From Flavobacteriales bacterium (GTDB lineage: Bacteria > Bacteroidota > Bacteroidia > CAIKAF01), in assembly GCA_018401695.1 (NCBI GenBank), contig JAGYKD010000001.1, forward strand, positions 660,016 through 724,015: DNA of 64,000 bases, read 5' to 3'. Numbering within the stretch: the first letter of the stretch is position 1; every line of letters starts with the position of its first letter. The translations under genes were made by a program, and so were the position numbers. The notes under the pieces are model-generated. The model worked only from the letters and a program-made list of their open reading frames with translations, was not told the origin of the DNA and searched no databases. Shown here piece by piece: positions 24,402-58,461 of this stretch.

Positions 24402-25538
24402 TTAGTGAGCCAGCAACAAGCTGTCCGCATTTGTCCCACAAGAGTTGCTCACTTGCCATTCTAGAATATAAGGCTCGCCTACATCGCCTGCAAAGGAACT
24501 GGTCGCAAGGGAAGGGCTTCCCAATTGCCCATTTAAACCCGAAAGTATGGACCAACTTCCATTGCCTACTTGGGGAGTATTTGCTGCTAAGTTTAATTGG
24601 TACCGGCTGCCACAACGAATAAGAATGTTATCCAAACGGTGAAAATCATTAAGACCTCCACAATACCCGGTGAACCCCCATTTCCAGCTGCGTTTATTTG
24701 CAGCTGCCCATGCAGCAGGTAAAGCTACAGGCCCTAAGACCAAGGCGTTATTCACGTAAACCCCCGTTAAGCCTAAGGCATCAAGTTCTATTTTTACTTG
24801 TACTGTTTGGTTACGCCAGGTAAAAGGCTGAGAAAACCCAAGCTCAACGTTGTTGTAGCTAACACTAATGCGATTGCAATAACTTGAGTTGTTGTACGAA
24901 CAAAATTTAATGATTAAAGACTGGCTGACAGGATTGTTGTTAAGTATATTAAGTACTTCTAGGGAGTCTCCAAAAACTACATTATGCCCATCAGCACCAC
25001 TGCCTCCACCATGAAACATATCGAAAAATAGTTCGTAGCGTTCTGAACTTGCCGATGGAGTTGGGTGCTCCAAAAACACACTACCCCAAGTAGCAGACTG
25101 GTTGGGCGTTAGCTGAAGTAGGCCCCCCGTAACTATGGCTGTTCCGGCCATACTGACATTGGAAGGCACTTGATTGTTATTAAAATCTGCTTGAAATGTA
25201 GTATCCCATTGTGTTATTTGGGGCACCGTAGGAGTACCAACAAGCGCTGTGCTCGGCTGAGGTTGGCACGTTCCGCAAACTTCTGACCAAAAGCTACCGG
25301 TAAAATAGTTCAGGCATTGGCTTTGGGTATTAAATATCATTAAACCGACAGCCGGCTGCACAATGGAATCGCGCTGAGCTGTGGTTAACCTAGGTGGTAA
25401 AAACCCCCTGTTTTGAGTACGCAACTCTAATAATGCAGAGGTGTCGGGATGCGCCGGAGACAAGCCGCCAATCAGCACGCCCTGAGCCTGGACAAAACCA
25501 AATAAACCGAGTAAATAGAAAGTAAAAACCTTAACCAT
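24402..25538 (-). CDS. Secreted protein with stalk-type N-terminal module, possibly C-terminally truncated
   Basis: The 378-residue product has a signal peptide (MVKVFTFYLLGLFGFVQAQ) and then the module QGVLIGG...DTSALLEL...RGFLPPRLTTAQRDSI...GLMIFNT, related to the N-terminus of the eight paralogues at 33-40 kb. A LamG/jelly-roll-like domain follows (YELFFDMFHGGGSGADGHNV, VQVKIELDALGLTGVYVNN). The end reads LEWQVSNSCGTNADSLLLAH, an Ig/PKD-like strand that stops abruptly; in relatives this strand continues to further domains. The MITE-like copy lies 160 bases downstream, so shortening at this site is plausible. No sorting domain remains. Confidence 0.75.
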   Translation of the reverse strand: MVKVFTFYLLGLFGFVQAQGVLIGGLSPAHPDTSALLELRTQNRGFLPPRLTTAQRDSIVQPAVGLMIFNTQSQCLNYFTGSFWSEVCGTCQPQPSTALVGTPTVPQITQWDTTFQADFNNNQVPSNVSMAGTAIVTGGLLQLTPNQSATWGSVFLEHPTPSASSERYELFFDMFHGGGSGADGHNVVFGDSLEVLNILNNNPVSQSLIIKFCSYNNSSYCNRISVSYNNVELGFSQPFTWRNQTVQVKIELDALGLTGVYVNNALVLGPVALPAAWAAANKRSWKWGFTGYCGGLNDFHRLDNILIRCGSRYQLNLAANTPQVGNGSWSILSGLNGQLGSPSLATSSFAGDVGEPYILEWQVSNSCGTNADSLLLAH

Positions 25539-32968: not shown

Positions 32969-33715
32969 ATGCCTGTTTCTCTTTGTATCGTTTTAAGCTT
33001 TCTTTTCTCATTGGTTTTCGCAACCGCCCGGTCCCAAGGAGTTAAAATTTCCTCAACACCCGGCAACCCCGATCCCTCCGCCGTTCTGGATGCCGAAGCC
33101 ACCGATAAAGGCGTCCTGGTGCCGCGCGTAGATTTGCAAAATGCGACCGACGGACAAACCGTGAGCAATCCGGCCACCGGATTAATGGTCTTCAATACCG
33201 GACAAACACTGGCTCCGGCAGGCTTTTATTACAATACCGGAACCCCACAAAACCCCACTTGGGCGCTAATGCTGCCGAATCCTGCCAATACCGACCTGGA
33301 CATGGGCAATTTCAATATTGTGCATTTGGCCCCGCCGGTGAATCCCAACGATGCAGTGAACAAGGATTATGTAGATCAGGCCGTGGTGAGCGGAAGCGGA
33401 GGAGGAGCTTGTGCTTGCCCCACGATGATAAGTGATATGAGCAGCAGCCTTTATACCTTAATTCAAGCCTTGGACTATTGCAGAAACCTTACCGAAGGAG
33501 GCCACAACGACTGGAGATTACCCACCATGGAAGAGGTAATTCGATTGAGAGGATTGGGTGGGGTAAATATTTCCAATTCAAATGCCCCCGAATGGTGCTG
33601 GGCAATGGCTACCGGAGGAGGCTCCACCCTTCCTTTTACAAGATATCGATTCATTGATTTTGCCCAAAGCGGGATTAGTAGTACATCAACAAGCCAAGTA
33701 AGATGCGTACGTTAA
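32969..33715 (+). CDS. Array paralogue 1: stalk plus DUF1566/Lcl-type tip
   Basis: The 248-residue exported protein has a signal peptide (MPVSLCIVLSFLFSLVFATA), then the array's constant region (about 25-145): QGVKISSTPGNPDPSAVLDA, GVLVPRVDLQNATDG, ATGLMVFNTGQ, GFYYNTGTPQNPTWALM and APPVNPNDAVNKDYVDQAV. The last is a phage-tail-fibre-like trimer motif. After a Gly/Ser linker comes a variable domain of about 100 residues: ALDYCRNLTEGGHNDWRLPT and the end VRCVR, which is the DUF1566/Lcl C-terminal pattern. Its tip is closest to paralogue 5 (CxCPTM start, LRGLGG). It overlaps the next gene by 13 bases. No sorting domain or membrane anchor is visible. Confidence 0.85.
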   Translation: MPVSLCIVLSFLFSLVFATARSQGVKISSTPGNPDPSAVLDAEATDKGVLVPRVDLQNATDGQTVSNPATGLMVFNTGQTLAPAGFYYNTGTPQNPTWALMLPNPANTDLDMGNFNIVHLAPPVNPNDAVNKDYVDQAVVSGSGGGACACPTMISDMSSSLYTLIQALDYCRNLTEGGHNDWRLPTMEEVIRLRGLGGVNISNSNAPEWCWAMATGGGSTLPFTRYRFIDFAQSGISSTSTSQVRCVR

Positions 33716-34434
33716 GTGTATTTATTGGATTAAGTCTTTCGGCCGTCCTTTCAGCCCAAGGCGTAAAAATCTCCGCCAACCCCGGCAACCCGGATCCCTC
33801 CGCCGTTCTGGATGCCGAAGCCACCGATAAAGGCGTGCTGGTGCCGCGGGTGGATTTGCAAAATGCTACCGACGGCCAAACCGTAAGCAATCCGGCCACC
33901 GGGCTAATGGTCTTCAATACCGGACAGAATCTGGCTCCTGCTGGGTTTTATTACAATGCAGGAACCCCGCAAAACCCTACTTGGGCGCTGATGTTGCCCA
34001 ATCCTGCCAACACCGATTTGGACATGGGCAATTTTAATATAGTAAACCTAGCTCCGCCGGTGAATCCCAACGATGCGGTGAACAAGGATTATGTGGATCA
34101 GGCCGTAGTGAGTGGCAGTGGGGGCGGAAGCAACAACTACCCAAGCCAAATAACCGACCAGAGAGGGCCGGCCAACCTTGGAACTGCTATTCGGGACTGC
34201 AATGGATTAAACCAGGGCGGGCATAACGATTGGTATTTACCCAATATGGACGAATTGCTTTATGTTTTGTCCAAAGGTGGCGTTAGCGTTCCCAATGCCA
34301 GCGATGCCCAATACCACTGGACCCGCACCCCTTCGAATGTGAGCAATGGACAATATTACTGCTACTATCTGCTTAATGGAGATATGACCGACTTTGCCGG
34401 AAGCAGTTCCATGTACTACCGTTGCGTACGCTAA
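33703..34434 (+). CDS. Array paralogue 2: stalk plus DUF1566/Lcl-type tip
   Basis: The 243-residue protein begins inside paralogue 1: the ATG lies in the codons for its final RCVR. The signal peptide is MRTLSVFIGLSLSAVLSAQ. The constant region is nearly the same as in paralogue 1 (GVKISANPGNPDPSAVLDA at its start). The tip has IRDCNGLNQGGHNDWYLPNM, ELLYVLSKGGVSVPN and ends YYRCVR. The two Cys of the tip (in DCNGL and RCVR) are kept in all eight genes and could form a disulphide. This tip has no close partner in the array, whereas its signal peptide resembles that of paralogue 6. Confidence 0.85.
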   Translation: MRTLSVFIGLSLSAVLSAQGVKISANPGNPDPSAVLDAEATDKGVLVPRVDLQNATDGQTVSNPATGLMVFNTGQNLAPAGFYYNAGTPQNPTWALMLPNPANTDLDMGNFNIVNLAPPVNPNDAVNKDYVDQAVVSGSGGGSNNYPSQITDQRGPANLGTAIRDCNGLNQGGHNDWYLPNMDELLYVLSKGGVSVPNASDAQYHWTRTPSNVSNGQYYCYYLLNGDMTDFAGSSSMYYRCVR

Positions 34435-34466
34435 TTGCCTTCTTTCTAAAACATAACATGCATGCT

Positions 34467-35207
34467 ATGAAGCAAAAGCTCTTATTTCTTTTCCTTAGCC
34501 TACTTCAAGGCACAACCCTCTTGGGTCAAGGAGTTAAAATTTCCTCAACTCCCGGCAACCCGGATCCCTCCGCCGTGCTGGATGCCGAAGCCACCGACAA
34601 AGGCGTATTGGTGCCGAGGGTGGATTTGCAAAATGCGACCGACGGACAAACCGTAAGCAGCCCAGCCACGGGTTTGATGGTCTTCAATACCGGACAAACA
34701 CTGGCTCCTGCAGGCTTTTATTACAATGTCGGAACTCCACAAAACCCTACCTGGGCCTTAATGCTGCCCAATCCTGCCAATACCGACTTGGACATGGGCA
34801 ATTTCAATATTGTACACTTAGCCCCGCCGGTGAATCCCAACGATGCGGTGAACAAGGATTATGTAGATCAGGCCGTGGTGAGCGGAAGCGGAAGTGGAAG
34901 TACGCCCAATGTAAGCATGCTTTCCAACGAATCACAAAGCTCCACCACCTTGGGAAATGCGGCCAGAGCCTGCGCCAACTTAACGGAAAGCGGGCACAGC
35001 GATTGGTTTTTACCCTCTATGGACGAGTTGATGTACCTCTTGAGCTACGACGCCGGAAACATAAGCCAAAACAATTCGCCCAATTTTCTTTGGACACGCA
35101 CTGCTTCCGGAACTTCCGGAAACCGAAGCTTGGCTGTCCGTCTTTCCGACGGATATATGGTTTCTGAGTATGGCTACAATAGTGAGTATTACCGATGTGT
35201 ACGATGA
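34467..35207 (+). CDS. Array paralogue 3: stalk plus DUF1566/Lcl-type tip
   Basis: The start is set at 34467 (MKQKLLFLFLSLLQGTTLLG, 246 residues); 34458 is possible. An in-frame TTG at 34422 reads LRTLIAFF and overlaps paralogue 2 exactly like the ATG overlaps elsewhere, probably a vestige of the older start. The constant region is followed by a tip starting SMLSNESQSSTTLGNAARAC and GHSDWFLPSMDELMYLLSY, SPNFLWTRTAS, ending YYRCVR. This tip is very similar to that of paralogue 6. Downstream lies the CCGGACCGCACGG element, as it does after paralogue 6. Confidence 0.85.
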   Translation: MKQKLLFLFLSLLQGTTLLGQGVKISSTPGNPDPSAVLDAEATDKGVLVPRVDLQNATDGQTVSSPATGLMVFNTGQTLAPAGFYYNVGTPQNPTWALMLPNPANTDLDMGNFNIVHLAPPVNPNDAVNKDYVDQAVVSGSGSGSTPNVSMLSNESQSSTTLGNAARACANLTESGHSDWFLPSMDELMYLLSYDAGNISQNNSPNFLWTRTASGTSGNRSLAVRLSDGYMVSEYGYNSEYYRCVR

Positions 35208-35216
35208 ACCCGGCCC

Positions 35217-35346
35217 CCGGACCGCACGGAAACCCCGGAGGCCCCAAGGCTTGTCCTGCCGTGCAGGGGGTTTTTGGAGCTTTGCGGAAAACAACCGCCT
35301 GCCGGCAGGGCTGCCTTGGGGCTGAGGAGTTGCAGTAAGGGCCGGG
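35217..35346. repeat. Intergenic repeat, CCGGACCGCACGG family (array copy 1)
   Basis: Nearly identical over about 130 bases to 38618-38746. Inside are inverted segments such as CCTGCCGTGCAGG and CCGCCTGCCGGCAGG. It joins paralogues 3 and 4. Confidence 0.7.
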
Positions 35347-35376
35347 AAAGGGCCCCAAAGAAGAAAACAATAAACC

Positions 35377-36123
35377 ATGAATAGAATTTTTTGCCTTTTA
35401 ATTTCAACTTTGGGTTTTGTCACTTTATCGGCCCAAGGCGTCAAAATCTCCTCCAATCCCGGCAACCCGGACCCATCTGCGGTCTTAGATGCCGAAGCCA
35501 CCGACAAAGGCGTCCTGGTGCCGCGGGTGGATTTGCAAAATGCGACCGACGGACAAACCGTAAGCAGCCCTGCCACGGGCCTAATGGTCTTCAATACCGG
35601 TCAAAGCCTCGCTCCGGAAGGTTTTTATTACAATGCCGGAACCCCGCAAAACCCCACGTGGGCGCTGATGCTGCCCAATCCCGCCAATGCCGACTTGGAC
35701 ATGGGCAATTTCAATATTGTACACTTAGCTCCGCCGGTGAATCCCAACGATGCGGTGAACAAGGATTATGTAGATCAGGCCGTGGTGAGTGGCAGTGGGG
35801 GCAGTGGCGGAGGTTTTTCCGTGCAAGAGGTAAGCCAGCGTTCGCCCAATCAAGTGCTGAATTTTGCGGAGGCGGCGCGGTATTGCCGCAATTTGACCGA
35901 GGGCGGCCATAGCGATTGGTACATGCCCAGCTACGATGAAATTGTGTACGCATTATCCTCAAGTGGCGTTCCCTTTCCCAGCAACAGCGACCCGAGCTAC
36001 TTTTGGTTGCGAAACCGATCGGACGATATGTTGACAGAGCATAGCATCATTCGCTTGAATGACGGGGTTTTAAGCCGAAGCACCGGCAGCAGCGGCAATT
36101 GGTATGCACGTTGCATTCGCTAA
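35377..36123 (+). CDS. Array paralogue 4: stalk plus DUF1566/Lcl-type tip
   Basis: The 248-residue protein has a signal peptide (MNRIFCLLISTLGFVTLSAQ) and the constant region with the small changes SLAPEGFYY and PANADLDMGN. The tip reads EVSQRSPNQVLNFAEAARYC, RNLTEGGHSDWYMPSYDEIV, SSGVPFPSNSDPSYFW and ends YARCIR. Its closest partner is paralogue 8 (VSQES, YALS). The opposite-strand methyltransferase ends only three bases after its stop, so the first half of the array is bounded here. Confidence 0.85.
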   Translation: MNRIFCLLISTLGFVTLSAQGVKISSNPGNPDPSAVLDAEATDKGVLVPRVDLQNATDGQTVSSPATGLMVFNTGQSLAPEGFYYNAGTPQNPTWALMLPNPANADLDMGNFNIVHLAPPVNPNDAVNKDYVDQAVVSGSGGSGGGFSVQEVSQRSPNQVLNFAEAARYCRNLTEGGHSDWYMPSYDEIVYALSSSGVPFPSNSDPSYFWLRNRSDDMLTEHSIIRLNDGVLSRSTGSSGNWYARCIR

Positions 36124-36126
36124 GGG

Positions 36127-36750
36127 CTATTTCGGCAAGAACTGAAACAGCGCATAATTGAACTTCTGCACAGAGCCGGAAGGAGTGGTATGGTCTATCC
36201 GCTCTTCCTTAAGGAGCGCGAATTCAGTACCCAAAAAGGACTGCATGTCTTGCGTGCTGTATTGGCAAATTTCAAGCCCGGAGCACTTGAGCGGTCCGTC
36301 GGGAGCGAAGGTGGCCAAAAGAAGATAACCCTTCGGCTTAAGGCTTTGTTTTAAAGAGCTCAAGTAGGCATGTTGCTCCTTTTCGTGGGTAAGAAAATGA
36401 AATACGGCACGGTCGTGCCAGACATCAACGGGCGGTAAGTTTGGCAAGCTAGCCGCATCAGCACAGAGGTAGTTTACAGAAGGAGATGCCTGACGCTTTT
36501 GTGCTTTGTCAAGCGCTTCTTGCGCTATGTCAAGCGCTGAAATATGGGTATAGCCCTTTTGCAGCAGAGCATCTATCAAATAACTTTCGCCGCAGCCCAT
36601 GTCTAAAATGTGGGCGTCTTTGGCCAAAGCTAAGGCATGAATCCAAGTAATGGAGGGCTCAGGGGACTTTTGGTGCCAGCTTACCTGACCCCAAGACTTT
36701 TCGGCATATACTTTTTCCCAATGCGCTCGGGTTTGATTTTTGCTGTTCAT
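36127..36750 (-). CDS. Class I SAM-dependent methyltransferase
   Basis: The 207-residue protein has motif I as ILDMGCGESYLIDALL (about 48-63), the acidic residue after strand 2 in ISALDIAQEALDKA, and DVWHDRAVFHFL as motif post-II. The N-terminal HWEKVYAEKSWGQVSWHQ is typical of the small-molecule type (TPMT/trans-aconitate-like). The substrate is unknown. It interrupts the paralogue array on the opposite strand and is unrelated to it; codon use looks ordinary. It could be an old insertion or the edge of a duplicated block. Confidence 0.85.
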   Translation of the reverse strand: MNSKNQTRAHWEKVYAEKSWGQVSWHQKSPEPSITWIHALALAKDAHILDMGCGESYLIDALLQKGYTHISALDIAQEALDKAQKRQASPSVNYLCADAASLPNLPPVDVWHDRAVFHFLTHEKEQHAYLSSLKQSLKPKGYLLLATFAPDGPLKCSGLEICQYSTQDMQSFLGTEFALLKEERIDHTTPSGSVQKFNYALFQFLPK

Positions 36751-37160
36751 ATAACAAAAGTACTACGCAATAAAGGAAGCATAAGTGTCCAAGGCCACCA
36801 AGCCAAGGTTTCGAAAAACTTAACTCAAGGATGTTGGGTTTTTAAGGAATAAGCGGTTCTAGGGCAAAGACGCCAAAGGCTTTGGACGGTGTTTTTGGGT
36901 GGCACGCAAAGACGCTATGGCGCTAAGGGCTTTTGACTGCGTAATCGCTTCTGAGCTAAGGCCTTTCCGCGGCAAAACCTCTGCGTCTTCGCGGCTTTGC
37001 GTGCCCATTTTTCCGCCCTAAAACTGTTCCGTCTTGAAAACGCTCGCCGCCCCACACGACCATCCAAAGTTTAGAAAAGCTTAATCTAAGGATGTTTGAT
37101 TTGGCCGTCTTTAAGTCTCCCTTAGCGCAAGGAGTTTCGTAATTTGGTCAAAAATACCCC
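36751..37160. other. Gene-free stretch with repeated spacer sequence
   Basis: No gene is supported in these 410 bases. Segments such as AAGCTTAATCTAAGGATGTT (37077-37096) recur near 36819 and near 39680-39700, and CTTTGCGTGCC-type sequence around 36995 recurs near 39606. The stretch therefore shares an origin with the spacer before paralogue 8. Confidence 0.5.
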
Positions 37161-37889
37161 ATGAAAAAAACGATTTGGTTGCTGGCCTTAGGCTTTTGTA
37201 GTCCTTTCCTTCAAGGTCAAGGCGTAAAAATCTCCTCCAATCCCGGCAATCCGGATCCCTCCGCCGTGCTGGATGCCGAAGCCACCGATAAAGGCGTATT
37301 GGTGCCTCGCGTAGATTTGCAAAACGCCACCGACGGACAAACCGTAAGCAGCCCAGCCACGGGTTTGATGGTCTTCAATACCGGACAGAATCTGGCTCCC
37401 GCAGGCTTTTATTACAATGCAGGAACCCCGCAAAACCCCACTTGGGCGCTGATGCTGCCCAATCCTGCCAATACCGACCTGGACATGGGCAATTTCAATA
37501 TTGTACACTTAGCTCCGCCGGTGAATCCCAACGATGCGGCGAACAAGGATTATGTAGATCAGGCCGTGGTGAGCGGCAGTGGAGGAGGCGGAGCTTGTCC
37601 TTGTCCAACCATGTTCAGCGATTTAAGCGCCAACACCTACGACTATGCGCAGGCATTGGATTATTGCAGAACACTAAACGAAGGAGGCCACAGCGACTGG
37701 AGGTTGCCCGATTTTACCGAGGTAACCAAATTAAGGGGACAAGGGGGTATAAACATTCCCAACTTAAATGGCGATTATACCTGGGCGATTAGCTCTTCGG
37801 GTTCGGGACATTTGGGATATCGAATGTCGGACATGGCTGTTGGCTCAGGAAATGCAGGAACCTTAAGAAAAGTAAGATGCGTACGATAA
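37161..37889 (+). CDS. Array paralogue 5: stalk plus DUF1566/Lcl-type tip
   Basis: The 242-residue protein has a signal peptide (MKKTIWLLALGFCSPFLQGQ), then the constant region (with NPNDAANKDYVDQAV, a one-residue change). The tip has CPCPTMFSDLSANTYDYAQA, LDYCRTLNEGGHSDWRLPDF, KLRGQGGINIPN and ends KVRCVR, closely resembling paralogue 1. Like paralogue 1, it overlaps the following gene by 13 bases. It starts the second half of the array. Confidence 0.85.
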   Translation: MKKTIWLLALGFCSPFLQGQGVKISSNPGNPDPSAVLDAEATDKGVLVPRVDLQNATDGQTVSSPATGLMVFNTGQNLAPAGFYYNAGTPQNPTWALMLPNPANTDLDMGNFNIVHLAPPVNPNDAANKDYVDQAVVSGSGGGGACPCPTMFSDLSANTYDYAQALDYCRTLNEGGHSDWRLPDFTEVTKLRGQGGINIPNLNGDYTWAISSSGSGHLGYRMSDMAVGSGNAGTLRKVRCVR

Positions 37890-38608
37890 GTTTACTATTA
37901 GGACTAAGCTTTGCCGGTGTTTTATCGGCCCAAGGCGTAAAAATTTCTTCTACACCCGGCAATCCGGACCCTTCGGCGGTGCTGGATGCCGAAGCCACCG
38001 ACAAAGGCGTATTGGTGCCACGGGTAGATTTGCAAAACGCCACGGACGGGCAAACCGTGAGTAATCCTGCTACAGGCTTGATGGTCTTCAATACCGGGCA
38101 AAGCTTAGCACCAGCAGGATTTTATTACAATGCCGGAACGCCGCAAAATCCTACTTGGGCATTGATGTTGCCGAACCCTGCCAATACCGACTTGGACATG
38201 GGCAATTTCAATATCGTGAATTTGGCCCCGCCGGTAAATGCCAACGATGCGGTGAATAAGGATTATGTGGATCAGGCCGTGGTGAGTGGTAGCGGTGGAA
38301 GTTCTCCGTCGGTGACGATGTTGTCGAATGAATCGCAGTCTACGGCCAATCATGCAAATGCTGCCAGAGCCTGTTCCAATTTAAGCGAAGGCGGGCATAC
38401 CGATTGGTTTTTGCCTTCGGTGGATGAGTTGGTGTATTTGTTGAGTTTTGATGCCGGTGGTATTTCTCAAAACAATTCCCCAAATTTCCTTTGGACAAGA
38501 ACTCCTACCGGAAGCAGCACAAGTTCCTTTCATATTTACCGCTTTTTGGATGGTTCAATGGCAGGAAATTCGGGTAGTAATTTGAACTTTTTTAGATGTG
38601 TACGATAA
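37877..38608 (+). CDS. Array paralogue 6: apparent recombinant of paralogues 2 and 3
   Basis: The 243-residue protein starts inside the RCVR codons of paralogue 5. Its signal peptide MRTISLLLGLSFAGVLSAQ resembles that of paralogue 2 (MRTLSVFIGLSLSAVLSAQ), while its tip (TMLSNESQSTANHANAARAC, GHTDWFLPSVDELVYLLSF, ISQNNSPNFLWTRTPTG) and the downstream spacer match paralogue 3. The crossover would fall in the nearly invariant middle region. One small variation is PPVNANDAVNKDYVDQAV. It ends FFRCVR. Confidence 0.85.
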   Translation: MRTISLLLGLSFAGVLSAQGVKISSTPGNPDPSAVLDAEATDKGVLVPRVDLQNATDGQTVSNPATGLMVFNTGQSLAPAGFYYNAGTPQNPTWALMLPNPANTDLDMGNFNIVNLAPPVNANDAVNKDYVDQAVVSGSGGSSPSVTMLSNESQSTANHANAARACSNLSEGGHTDWFLPSVDELVYLLSFDAGGISQNNSPNFLWTRTPTGSSTSSFHIYRFLDGSMAGNSGSNLNFFRCVR

Positions 38609-38617
38609 ACCCGGCCC

Positions 38618-38746
38618 CCGGACCGCACGAAAACCCCGGAAGCACCAAGGCCTGCCCTGCCGTGCAGGGGGTTTTTGGAGCTTTGCGGAAAACAACCGCC
38701 TGCCGGCAGGGCTGCCTTGGGGCTGAGGAGTTGCAGTAAGGGCCGG
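38618..38746. repeat. Intergenic repeat, CCGGACCGCACGG family (array copy 2)
   Basis: Near-identical to the spacer at 35217-35346, with the same borders and inner palindromes. It joins paralogues 6 and 7. Confidence 0.7.
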
Positions 38747-38783
38747 AATAGGGCCCCAAAACCTAAAATTGAAAATTTATACC

Positions 38784-39530
38784 ATGAAAATAATTTCCCT
38801 CGCTTTAATTTCTACTCTAGGTGTTTCTGCCGCATTTGCCCAGGGCGTAAAAATCTCCTCCACACCGGGCAATCCGGATCCGTCGGCGGTGCTGGACGCC
38901 GATGCCACCGACAAGGGCGTCCTGGTGCCTCGCGTAGATTTGCAAAACGCCACCGACGGACAAACCGTAAGCAATCCCGCCACCGGGTTGATGGTATTCA
39001 ATACCGGACAAAACTTAGCTCCGGCAGGTTTTTATTACAATGCCGGAACCCCGCAAAACCCCACTTGGGCGCTGATGCTGCCCAATCCTGCCAATACCGA
39101 TTTGGACATGGGCAATTTCAATATTGTACACTTAGCCCCGCCGGTGAATCCCAACGATGCGGTGAACAAGGATTATGTGGATCAGGCCGTGGTGAGCGGC
39201 AGTGGAGGCGGTGGCTCTTGTGCTTGCCCCTCCGAAATGAGCTCGGAAAGCGCTCCCATGAATTTTGGGGCGGCTATTGCCCATTGCAGAAACTTAAACG
39301 AAGGTGGACATACCGACTGGAGGCTCCCAACCTTGGAAGAAATCATCAAACTTGCCAGCGATGGCTCCGTGAATGTGCCCGGTGGCTTTTCCAGTAATTT
39401 TTTATGGTCCATTTCTACCAACCCTTACTATTCTTCCGGCTACTACTACATGATAAATTTGTCCAACGGATCCACAGGCACAAATTCTACATCTACCTCA
39501 AACTTGAGAAGTGTGCGTTGTATTCGTTAA
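38784..39530 (+). CDS. Array paralogue 7: stalk plus DUF1566/Lcl-type tip
   Basis: The start at 38784 gives 248 residues with signal peptide MKIISLALISTLGVSAAFAQ, almost the same as in paralogue 8, and an upstream TTG frame is rejected. The constant region has one change (VLDADATDKG). The tip reads CACPSEMSSESAPMNFGAAI, AHCRNLNEGGHTDWRLPTLE, IIKLASDGSVNVPGG and ends SVRCIR. About 60 bases upstream of the start, through the signal peptide, are the same as in paralogue 8, so these two 5' ends arose by recent duplication even though their tips differ. Confidence 0.85.
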   Translation: MKIISLALISTLGVSAAFAQGVKISSTPGNPDPSAVLDADATDKGVLVPRVDLQNATDGQTVSNPATGLMVFNTGQNLAPAGFYYNAGTPQNPTWALMLPNPANTDLDMGNFNIVHLAPPVNPNDAVNKDYVDQAVVSGSGGGGSCACPSEMSSESAPMNFGAAIAHCRNLNEGGHTDWRLPTLEEIIKLASDGSVNVPGGFSSNFLWSISTNPYYSSGYYYMINLSNGSTGTNSTSTSNLRSVRCIR

Positions 39531-39755
39531 GCCCTGATCTTCAGACAAAGGGTGAGCCATTTTTGTAGACGGCCCAAAGGACTTTTGAGGGCGTTTTCGG
39601 ATTTGCGTGCCAATTATTCCGCGCTAAAGCCTTTTCGCCTTTGCGCCCATCTCCACTCGAAAAGGCCACCCAAATTTTAGATAAGCTTAACCATAGGATG
39701 TTTGGTTCGGCCGTTGTTAATAGGGCCCCAAAACCTAAAATTGAAAATTTATACC

Positions 39756-40496
39756 ATGAAAATAATTTCCCTCGCTTTAATTTCTACTCTAGGTATTTCT
39801 TCCGCATTTGCCCAGGGCGTAAAAATCTCCTCCACACCGGGCAATCCGGATCCGTCGGCGGTGCTGGACGCCGAAGCCACCGATAAAGGCGTATTGGTGC
39901 CGCGCGTAGATTTGCAAAACGCCACCGACGGACAAACCGTAAGCAATCCCGCCACCGGGTTGATGGTATTCAATACCGGACAAAACTTAGCTCCGGCAGG
40001 TTTTTATTACAATGCCGGAACCCCGCAAAACCCCACTTGGGCGCTGATGCTGCCCAATCCTGCCAATACGGACTTGGACATGGGCAATTTCAATATTGTA
40101 CACTTAGCTCCTCCGGTGAATCCCAACGATGCGGTGAACAAGGATTATGTAGATCAGGCCGTGGTGAGCGGCAGTGGGGGAAGCGGCATGCCGAATCAAG
40201 TGAGCCAAGAATCGGTCAACGGCATGACTTATGGAGATGCGCTCAGGTACTGCAAAGCACTTAACGAGGCCGGCCACACCGATTGGTACCTACCTAGTAT
40301 TGAAGAATTAAGCTATGCACTTTCTTTGGGTTCCGGGCCGCCGGTGAGCAACCCAAGCTCGAGCAACAGCCTCTGGACCAGGTCGGTAGCCCAACAAAAT
40401 GGCTGGTCGCATCGGCAATTGGCTTTTGAAATTGGTACAGGCTATTATCAGGTAGCAACGCCAAATACGCAGTATTGGGTACGTTGCGTACGCTAA
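39756..40496 (+). CDS. Array paralogue 8: stalk plus DUF1566/Lcl-type tip
   Basis: The start at 39756 gives 246 residues; longer readings from 39702 extend into the duplicated spacer. Signal peptide MKIISLALISTLGISSAFAQ. The constant region is followed by a tip with NQVSQESVNGMTYGDALRYC, KALNEAGHTDWYLPSIEELS and YALSLGSGPPVSNPSSSNSL, ending YWVRCVR, nearest to paralogue 4. It is the last gene of the array. The 453 bases after it hold no supported gene. Confidence 0.85.
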   Translation: MKIISLALISTLGISSAFAQGVKISSTPGNPDPSAVLDAEATDKGVLVPRVDLQNATDGQTVSNPATGLMVFNTGQNLAPAGFYYNAGTPQNPTWALMLPNPANTDLDMGNFNIVHLAPPVNPNDAVNKDYVDQAVVSGSGGSGMPNQVSQESVNGMTYGDALRYCKALNEAGHTDWYLPSIEELSYALSLGSGPPVSNPSSSNSLWTRSVAQQNGWSHRQLAFEIGTGYYQVATPNTQYWVRCVR

Positions 40497-56807: not shown

Positions 56808-58379
56808 TCAATAGGAAAGAATTATCTGACCATCGCCGGAACGTGTACCTCCACTCATAGAAGCATTGCTCAAATTCCCCGTCCAGGAAGATCCGCCGCC
56901 GCCCCCGGCATTAGAATTGGCCCCGCCGGAAGATCCGCCACCTCCATAATAACCTCCGCCGCCTCCGGCAGAACCGGTTGCCCCACCAGCGTTTCCTCCC
57001 AAACCAAGCTGTCCATTTGTTCCTGGCCCATAGCCCGGATTGGTTCCGCCTTGGCCTCCGGAATTAAAACCACCGCCGCCACCGCCGCCGCCGTTATTCC
57101 CACCATTGCCGACACCACCCTGTCCTCCATTTATACCTCCGGGAAAACCGCCAACCCCGGGACCTTGATTGTTCGCTCCTGTACCCCCTTCGCCTCCGCA
57201 ATAATTGGCACCGCAACTGCCTCCTCCTCCGTCTCCTCCATTGGCGTTTCCGTTGCTAGCCCCTGCTCCACCTCCGCCTGCTGCTACAATTACTCGATCC
57301 CCTAAACTTGTGCCATTCAAACGCAGGTCTGAGGCACCTCCCCCGCTGCCGCCACCACTATTGCCCGTTCCACCCCCATTAAAGCCATTCCTACCACCTA
57401 CGTATAAGTGAAGCACATCGCCGGGGCTAACCGAAAGAACTCCCGTTGCATAACCTCCCCTTCCCGGTTGGCTGCCGGAACTGCTGTTGGCTCCTTCAGC
57501 TCCCCAAGCCTGAACAGTAACTGAACACACCCCCGATGGAACTGTCCAACTAACGGAACCGTTCGAAAAGTTGTAGGTAGAACTTTGGTTTTGCGCCGAA
57601 CAGTTGACTACCTGTACGTTTTGAACTACAGTGTCCGCACAACCATTCCCACTGGCAATCAACTGCACGGAAAAGCTACCTGTTCCTGACCAGGTTACGC
57701 TAGGGCTTTGTGCCACCGAACTTGCCGGAGTTCCATTCTGAAAAGTCCATTGGTAGCTCCAGCCACTAGATGATGCAGTAAATTGGACAGGAACATTGGG
57801 CGAGCCGCTGCTCGGGTTAACACTAAATCCGGCACTGGGTTGCCCAATAGAAACGGAAAGCGATGCCCCTGACGAGCTTCCACAAAAATTATCCGCCTGC
57901 ACCGTAACTTGTCCCGGGTTCGAGCCTATGCTCACTACAATGCTGTCCGTACCCTGGCCCGACAATAGGGTGCTTCCTTGCGGCACACTCCAGGTATAAC
58001 CTGTTGCTCCTTGTACCGGACTTACGGTATAGCTGGCAGATAGTCCCGAACACACCGTTGCCGGGCCTTGTGGAGCTTGAGGCGTAGACGGGGGCGCTTG
58101 GCAGTCGCAAGCCACGGCCGCCCAACCGGAGGCAAAATATGCCTCAAAGCATTGATTATCCGTATTGAAAATGAGCAAGCCCTGTGCCGGCTGAGCTATG
58201 GCGTTTCTTTGAGCCGTTCCCATCCGGTTCACCAAAAATCCTCGGGTAGTATCTTGCAGTTCTAAAGTAGCCGAAGGGTCCGGCTGACCCGCATTCGGGC
58301 TAATAAGCACGCCTTGGGCCTCTGATTTTATGCCACAAAAAAGAACAAACAAAAAGAATATTGAACGCATAGGCTTCAT
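56808..58379 (-). CDS. Secreted PKD and glycine-rich (ALK-like) protein with stalk-type N-terminus
   Basis: The start is set at 58379 (MKPMRSIFFLFVLFCGIKSE, cleavage after AQ), giving 523 residues. The N-terminal module QGVLISPNAGQPDPSATLEL, RGFLVNRMGTAQRNAIAQPA and GLLIFNTDNQC is shared with the gene at 24402 and with the eight array paralogues. PKD/Ig-like domains follow (GPATVCSGLSASYTVSPVQG, NVPVQFTASSSGWSYQWTFQ). The last ~220 residues are very glycine-rich after VSWTVPSGVCSVTVQAWGAE, the pattern of the ALK-type Gly-rich fold. No sorting domain is visible, so it may be secreted by another route or anchored by partners. Confidence 0.8.
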   Translation of the reverse strand: MKPMRSIFFLFVLFCGIKSEAQGVLISPNAGQPDPSATLELQDTTRGFLVNRMGTAQRNAIAQPAQGLLIFNTDNQCFEAYFASGWAAVACDCQAPPSTPQAPQGPATVCSGLSASYTVSPVQGATGYTWSVPQGSTLLSGQGTDSIVVSIGSNPGQVTVQADNFCGSSSGASLSVSIGQPSAGFSVNPSSGSPNVPVQFTASSSGWSYQWTFQNGTPASSVAQSPSVTWSGTGSFSVQLIASGNGCADTVVQNVQVVNCSAQNQSSTYNFSNGSVSWTVPSGVCSVTVQAWGAEGANSSSGSQPGRGGYATGVLSVSPGDVLHLYVGGRNGFNGGGTGNSGGGSGGGASDLRLNGTSLGDRVIVAAGGGGAGASNGNANGGDGGGGSCGANYCGGEGGTGANNQGPGVGGFPGGINGGQGGVGNGGNNGGGGGGGGFNSGGQGGTNPGYGPGTNGQLGLGGNAGGATGSAGGGGGYYGGGGSSGGANSNAGGGGGSSWTGNLSNASMSGGTRSGDGQIILSY

Positions 58380-58461
58380 AATACATAGCATTTAATCAAG
58401 ACAGGTTTAGGTGTCCTTTAAAAATAATACCACAAAGTACCAAAACAAGGGCTTCATCAGA

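Follow-up and report, generated by a model that had tools for sequence, protein, structure and literature searches.

How do eight neighboring genes come to encode proteins that are nearly alike over one part and very different over another? The window, by which we mean the whole 64,000-nucleotide stretch of the Flavobacteriales genome analyzed here, holds such a set at positions 32969 to 40496. The first-pass annotation had described it as a tandem array of proteins with a constant stalk and exchangeable tips and had suggested that recombination generates the tip diversity. We found that the array is real: eight open reading frames, all on the plus strand, share a stalk and carry divergent tips, and a direct-repeat search recovered the same 300-nt unit eight times. 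The features, in window positions, are as follows.

32969..33715, plus strand: g1, with a leader, the constant stalk and an Lcl_C-type tip; 248 aa; likely ATG start at 32969
33703..34434, plus strand: g2, with leader, stalk and tip; 243 aa; likely ATG start at 33703
34467..35207, plus strand: g3, with leader, stalk and tip; 246 aa; likely ATG start at 34467; tip orthologous to the B6 tip of the relative G002
35205..35359, plus strand: copy 1 of an intergenic repeat of about 152 bp, GC-rich and containing a terminator-like hairpin; after g3
35377..36123, plus strand: g4, with leader, stalk and tip; 248 aa; likely ATG start at 35377
36127..36750, minus strand: a methyltransferase gene that interrupts the array between g4 and g5
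37161..37889, plus strand: g5, with leader, stalk and tip; 242 aa; likely ATG start at 37161; upstream region and leader orthologous to G002 B6, tip to B3
37877..38608, plus strand: g6, with leader, stalk and tip; 243 aa; likely ATG start at 37877; leader and tip both match G002 B4
38606..38760, plus strand: copy 2 of the GC-rich repeat, 95% identical; after g6
38784..39530, plus strand: g7, with leader, stalk and tip; 248 aa; likely ATG start at 38784; tip modeled, with the fold of the Lcl C-terminal domain
38841..39203, plus strand: constant stalk DNA of g7 (GVKIS...VSGSG), 363 nt, an example of the eight stalk copies
39756..40496, plus strand: g8, with leader, stalk and tip; 246 aa; likely ATG start at 39756

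Genes g1 and g2 share 13 nt at their junction, as do g5 and g6, and in both pairs the downstream gene starts within the codons for the conserved RCVR end of the upstream one. The methyltransferase gene has no counterpart in the stretches around the G002 array. Elsewhere in the genome, the GC-rich repeat gave short partial matches only. Counts of sigma-70 promoter patterns were near chance, and so were those of the Bacteroidota-type pattern, which was absent upstream of the array genes.

The proteins follow one plan. A leader precedes the common stalk, which is made up of an N-terminal head and a DAVNKDYVD segment, and a Gly/Ser linker then leads to an Lcl-type tip. The stalk has 121 residues and is common to g1 to g8, and the Gly/Ser linker joins it to the tip in all eight. 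Identity along the eight genes is not uniform. In the protein alignment it is 0.90 to 1.00 across columns 31 to 140 and 0.12 to 0.49 over most of the tip, with higher values at the GGHxDWxLP block. The stalk had been called almost invariant in both protein and DNA. This holds for the protein, with 95 to 99% identity within the genome, but not for the DNA, where nucleotide identity within the genome is 0.83 to 0.97 (mean, 0.88) and third bases at four-fold codons of g1 to g8 agree at 0.64. The signal-peptide-like leaders (signal peptides were judged by eye) vary among the array genes too. Thus, the constant stalk is flanked by two variable parts.

Stalk residues 105 to 139 or so, the DAVNKDYVD segment, match phage tail-fiber families in PHROGs, with a phrog_2710 match in 38/38 array members, and they also match the solved tail fibers 8vbx, 23sh and 8es4. 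We rejected a phage origin of the proteins, as a viral scan found the short DAVNKDYVD segment only. The first 60 or so stalk residues, the head, occur at 52 places in the 3.0-Mb genome. Some 40 further proteins of this genome carry the head (for example, within 24402-25538 and 56808-58391); in those that we read out, the C-terminal parts differ and look Gly-rich or fibrinogen-like by eye. The head may be a module of general use in display or assembly. In this genome, an Lcl-type tip follows the full stalk in g1 to g8 and in one distant single gene (C1:520720) and nowhere else. We also observed tandem head-bearing proteins, with no match to an Lcl-type tip, in Flavobacterium sp. MC2016-06 (L079, 9980-17922), and genes with only a DAxNKDYVD linker and an Lcl-type tip in the Crocinitomicaceae MAG SJ145 (L073, L074 and L076). 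No type IX secretion (T9SS) tail was found on the array proteins, though that domain has 70 matches in the genome.

The tips have about 100 residues and are 25 to 62% identical among g1 to g8. All eight match Pfam PF07603, Lcl_C (DUF1566), at E values of 1e-5 to 3e-11, five of them above and three below the curated cut-off of 34.9 bits. When the PDB was searched by sequence with the tip profile, Lcl came up at an E value of 0.17 only. Therefore, a fold search was needed. We modeled g7 with AlphaFold2, using an alignment of the 38 array proteins from the genus as input. The tip was predicted with a pLDDT of about 84 to 97, and the stalk was unfolded in this monomer prediction (pLDDT of about 32 to 41). 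Foldseek against the PDB placed first 8q4e, the C-terminal domain of Legionella Lcl (probability, 1.00; E 5e-4) and ranked C-type lectins next, and the best viral matches of the tip model were phage DUF1566 proteins. These matches bear out the earlier assignment of the tips to a DUF1566/Lcl-type, C-type-lectin-like domain.

Across the 38 proteins, Cys168, Asp178, Trp179, Trp208 and the final Arg-Cys-x-Arg are invariant (g7 numbering). The His of GGH, part of a tip motif first listed as kept, varies in relatives, where GGF occurs. The tip varies most in its C-terminal half (mean entropy of 2.27 versus 1.59 bits). In the HMMER alignment, a weak one (E 0.17), this half aligns with the stretch of Lcl that carries the glycosaminoglycan-binding lysines; the lysines were placed by their distance from the last aligned Arg, and the mapping leans on the fold match. 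These lysines are reported to bind glycosaminoglycans in Lcl (PMC11162425).

We found arrays in five other species of the same genus, with one genome compared per species. Genes are labeled A for the source genome G000 (A1 to A8 are g1 to g8), B for G002, C for G003, D for G001, E for G004 and F for G005. There are at least 7 genes in B, 15 in C, 12 in D, at least 2 in E and at least 1 in F; the assemblies are drafts, several of the relatives' arrays are cut by contig ends and assembly errors within arrays are possible. Chance is excluded, since five other species have genes of this architecture. Outside the genus, the stalk was found in 0/54 genomes at an E value of 1e-20, and members of the family have 0 to 1 Lcl_C matches; no comparable array was found in the rest of the family. 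Array size and order differ between species, as a comparison of single genomes shows, and tips have been gained and lost between them. One array gene of species C, C12 (L055, 13659-14621), carries a longer DUF1566-type tip in place of the short array type. The public records of the relatives are named as uncultured Flavobacteriales, Bacteroidia or Bacteroidetes MAGs, and some isolate names suggest lakes as the source. In the literature, of which the papers searched were an incomplete set, we found no description of such an array.

The flanking genes are identical in kind for the A and B arrays. The upstream flank of the D array is common to C, whose upstream flank is also common to E, and the downstream flank of D is common to F. 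The A and B flanking genes had no match in the stretches around the arrays of C to F. Thus, the array appears to occupy a different genomic place in A and B than in the other clade.

The two parts of the protein have different histories. In the stalk tree, all stalks of A and B form one clade against those of C to F (support, 100/100). The tip tree rejects A and B as one clade (AU p 0.00043), also without the long branches A2 and A4 (p 0.00012) and with A2, A4 and the linker removed (p 5e-6), and requires at least three changes. The tip lineages predate the split of the two species clades. The stalks evolve in concert and the tips group by older lineage.

It could be argued that the genes are ordinary paralogues that arose by birth and death, with purifying selection on the protein alone keeping the stalks alike while the tips diverged, all without recombination. 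The very low dN/dS of the stalk (0.03 to 0.07) fits that account, as does the substantial divergence at its synonymous sites (dS of 0.5 to 1.0). However, selection on the protein does not keep synonymous bases alike. We compared third bases within each genome, only at four-fold codons encoding the same amino acid. Identity in the stalk was 0.64 in A, 0.62 in B, 0.54 in C and 0.68 in D, and in the tip it was 0.38, 0.27, 0.41 and 0.37, with chance at 0.28 to 0.37; the stalk thus exceeded both tip and chance in 4/4 species tested. Synonymous sites are saturated between tip paralogues but not between stalks. Nor does this account predict stalks that coalesce within clades when the tip lineages are older than the clade split, or the re-pairing of leaders with tips described below, which is not expected without recombination. 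We therefore regard selection without recombination as improbable.

The homogenization of stalks is slow, since stalks differ about as much within A (median dS, 0.66) as between A and B (0.74). The stalk DNA is only partly homogenized. PHI-type recombination tests on stalks were significant in B (p 0.015), D (p 0.01) and C plus D (p <0.001) and not significant in A (p 0.80), C (p 0.16) and A plus B (p 0.21). Four-gamete conflicts occur in 55 to 65% of stalk site pairs in A and B, of which a part may be homoplasy.

Between species, leaders have been re-paired with different tips. The 60 upstream bases and leader of B6 match A5 (0.88 and 0.92), and its tip and downstream region match A3 (0.88, 0.85 and 0.97). 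Likewise, B2 has an A2-type leader with an A7-type tip, D4 has the C5 leader with the C3 tip, and in B3 the A5 tip follows a leader that has no counterpart, with a collinear block that begins at the A5 stalk and ends at the A7 stalk. E1 and C1 agree in the upstream region and all through the stalk but not beyond it, although the block with the shared upstream flank is 92% identical. In each chimeric case the switch point lies inside the stalk. A tip and the leader of the next gene remain linked in A5/B3, A6/B4, C4/D3 and C8/D7. Thus, the unit that moves is the tip with the intergenic stretch and the next leader, bounded by stalks.

We asked whether recombination also made the tips different. 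Tips that are orthologous between species have a dN of 0.01 to 0.14 and a dS of 0.3 to 2.7 and are therefore under purifying selection. The idea of diversity by recombination thus stands in part: leader-tip pairs are reshuffled within the stalk, but the tip sequences are old and saturated, and no diversification enzyme was found in the searches described next. Recombination appears to homogenize the stalks and to re-pair leaders with tips; the tips themselves diverged long ago.

The same data speak to programmed diversification, in which a diversity-generating retroelement (DGR), a shufflon-like invertase or silent cassettes would change the tips within a strain and give binding or antigenic variation. 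Among the Pfam domains found in DGR target genes, DUF1566 is reported to be the commonest (PMC6642488), a constant part with exchangeable C-terminal tips resembles PilV shufflons, and at array position 1 the leader is conserved and the tips differ between C and E. However, we found no DGR-type reverse transcriptase in the six genomes: RVT_1 gave one match each in A and B, with motifs (QGPAAS and QGSPTSP) that are not of DGR type by eye, and none in the four other relatives. When the tips of g1, g2, g7 and g8 were searched in their own genome for a template repeat, they returned only the array, one distant paralogue and short chance matches, with no second copy of any of the four. The orthologous tips lack hypermutation, all array genes lie on one strand, and a scan of ten proteins from the array and its surroundings showed no recombinase. 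Synonymous conservation in the stalk is uneven with no sharp peak, which argues against a specific recombination site there. A dedicated diversification system is thus very unlikely. As for the two reverse transcriptase genes, the one in the source genome (G000:C1:876500-882500, L064) lies beside membrane and nucleotidyltransferase-like open reading frames and the one in G002 (G002:C13, L100) is retron-like; both are possible defense loci.

We consider it probable that the locus encodes, in tandem, a repertoire of secreted, fiber-like and probably trimeric proteins particular to this genus, which homologous recombination slowly homogenizes and reshuffles. Homologous recombination between the stalk repeats of 363 to 369 bp, through unequal crossing-over and gene conversion, would produce both the homogenization and the re-pairing of leaders with tips. 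The re-pairing would stay in frame because the stalks are collinear. The proteins probably form trimeric fibers and would act outside the cell, where the C-type-lectin-like tip most likely binds a surface glycan or protein, and the repertoire would be kept because different tips bind different targets. The most likely function is that of a set of secreted adhesin-like fibers with different lectin-like tips.

The tips could instead be assembly interfaces, with the array encoding coexpressed subunits of one hetero-oligomeric surface structure. Intergenic spacing in the C and D arrays is operon-like, at 6 to 22 nt, and the Lcl_C domain also trimerizes (PMC11162425). However, the better-covered species have 8 to 15 genes, with tips gained and lost, unlike a fixed complex, and the tip varies most where it aligns with the ligand-binding stretch of Lcl. 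We give the single-structure reading little credence. A more speculative and rather doubtful reading gives the stalk the role of an in-frame recombination scaffold: crossing-over within a population would put tips behind other leaders or transcription units and so switch the displayed lectin without a dedicated recombinase.

The array offers a clear natural case, in uncultured aquatic bacteria, in which old, divergent lectin-like tips are kept while their carrier is homogenized and re-paired. Its signature, in which carriers group by clade, tips group by lineage and the switches fall within the carrier, can be tested directly by long-read sequencing. The tips, as small domains, are readily available for assays of binding. 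The uncharacterized head, so frequent in the genome, is now linked to lectin-like proteins.

Several known systems resemble the array in part. Polymorphic toxins (PMC3482391) also exchange their C-terminal ends by recombination behind a conserved N-terminal carrier, but here the ends are lectin-like rather than toxins and no immunity genes lie between the units. The PilV shufflon of IncI plasmids (PMC5430464) likewise joins a constant N-terminal part to alternative C-terminal adhesin tips; in the array, no invertase or inverted tip cassettes were found, and the units are whole genes with their own leaders on one strand. DGR targets with DUF1566 (PMC6642488) share the variable ends of C-type-lectin fold and sometimes comprise several target open reading frames, whereas the searches above found neither a DGR reverse transcriptase nor a template repeat, and the variation in the array is old and not hypermutation. 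Closest in the tip is Legionella Lcl (8q4e; PMC11162425), in which an extended stalk likewise ends in a C-terminal Lcl_C domain with a C-type-lectin-like fold; Lcl is extracellular, as the array proteins are presumed to be. The stalk of Lcl is collagen-like, whereas that of the array consists of the head and the tail-fiber-like segment, with no collagen-like repeat in any of the eight sequences. Cys168 and Cys246 are invariant in the array proteins, and the C-terminal domain of Lcl is without disulfides. Unlike Lcl, the array genes stand in tandem and carry divergent tips.
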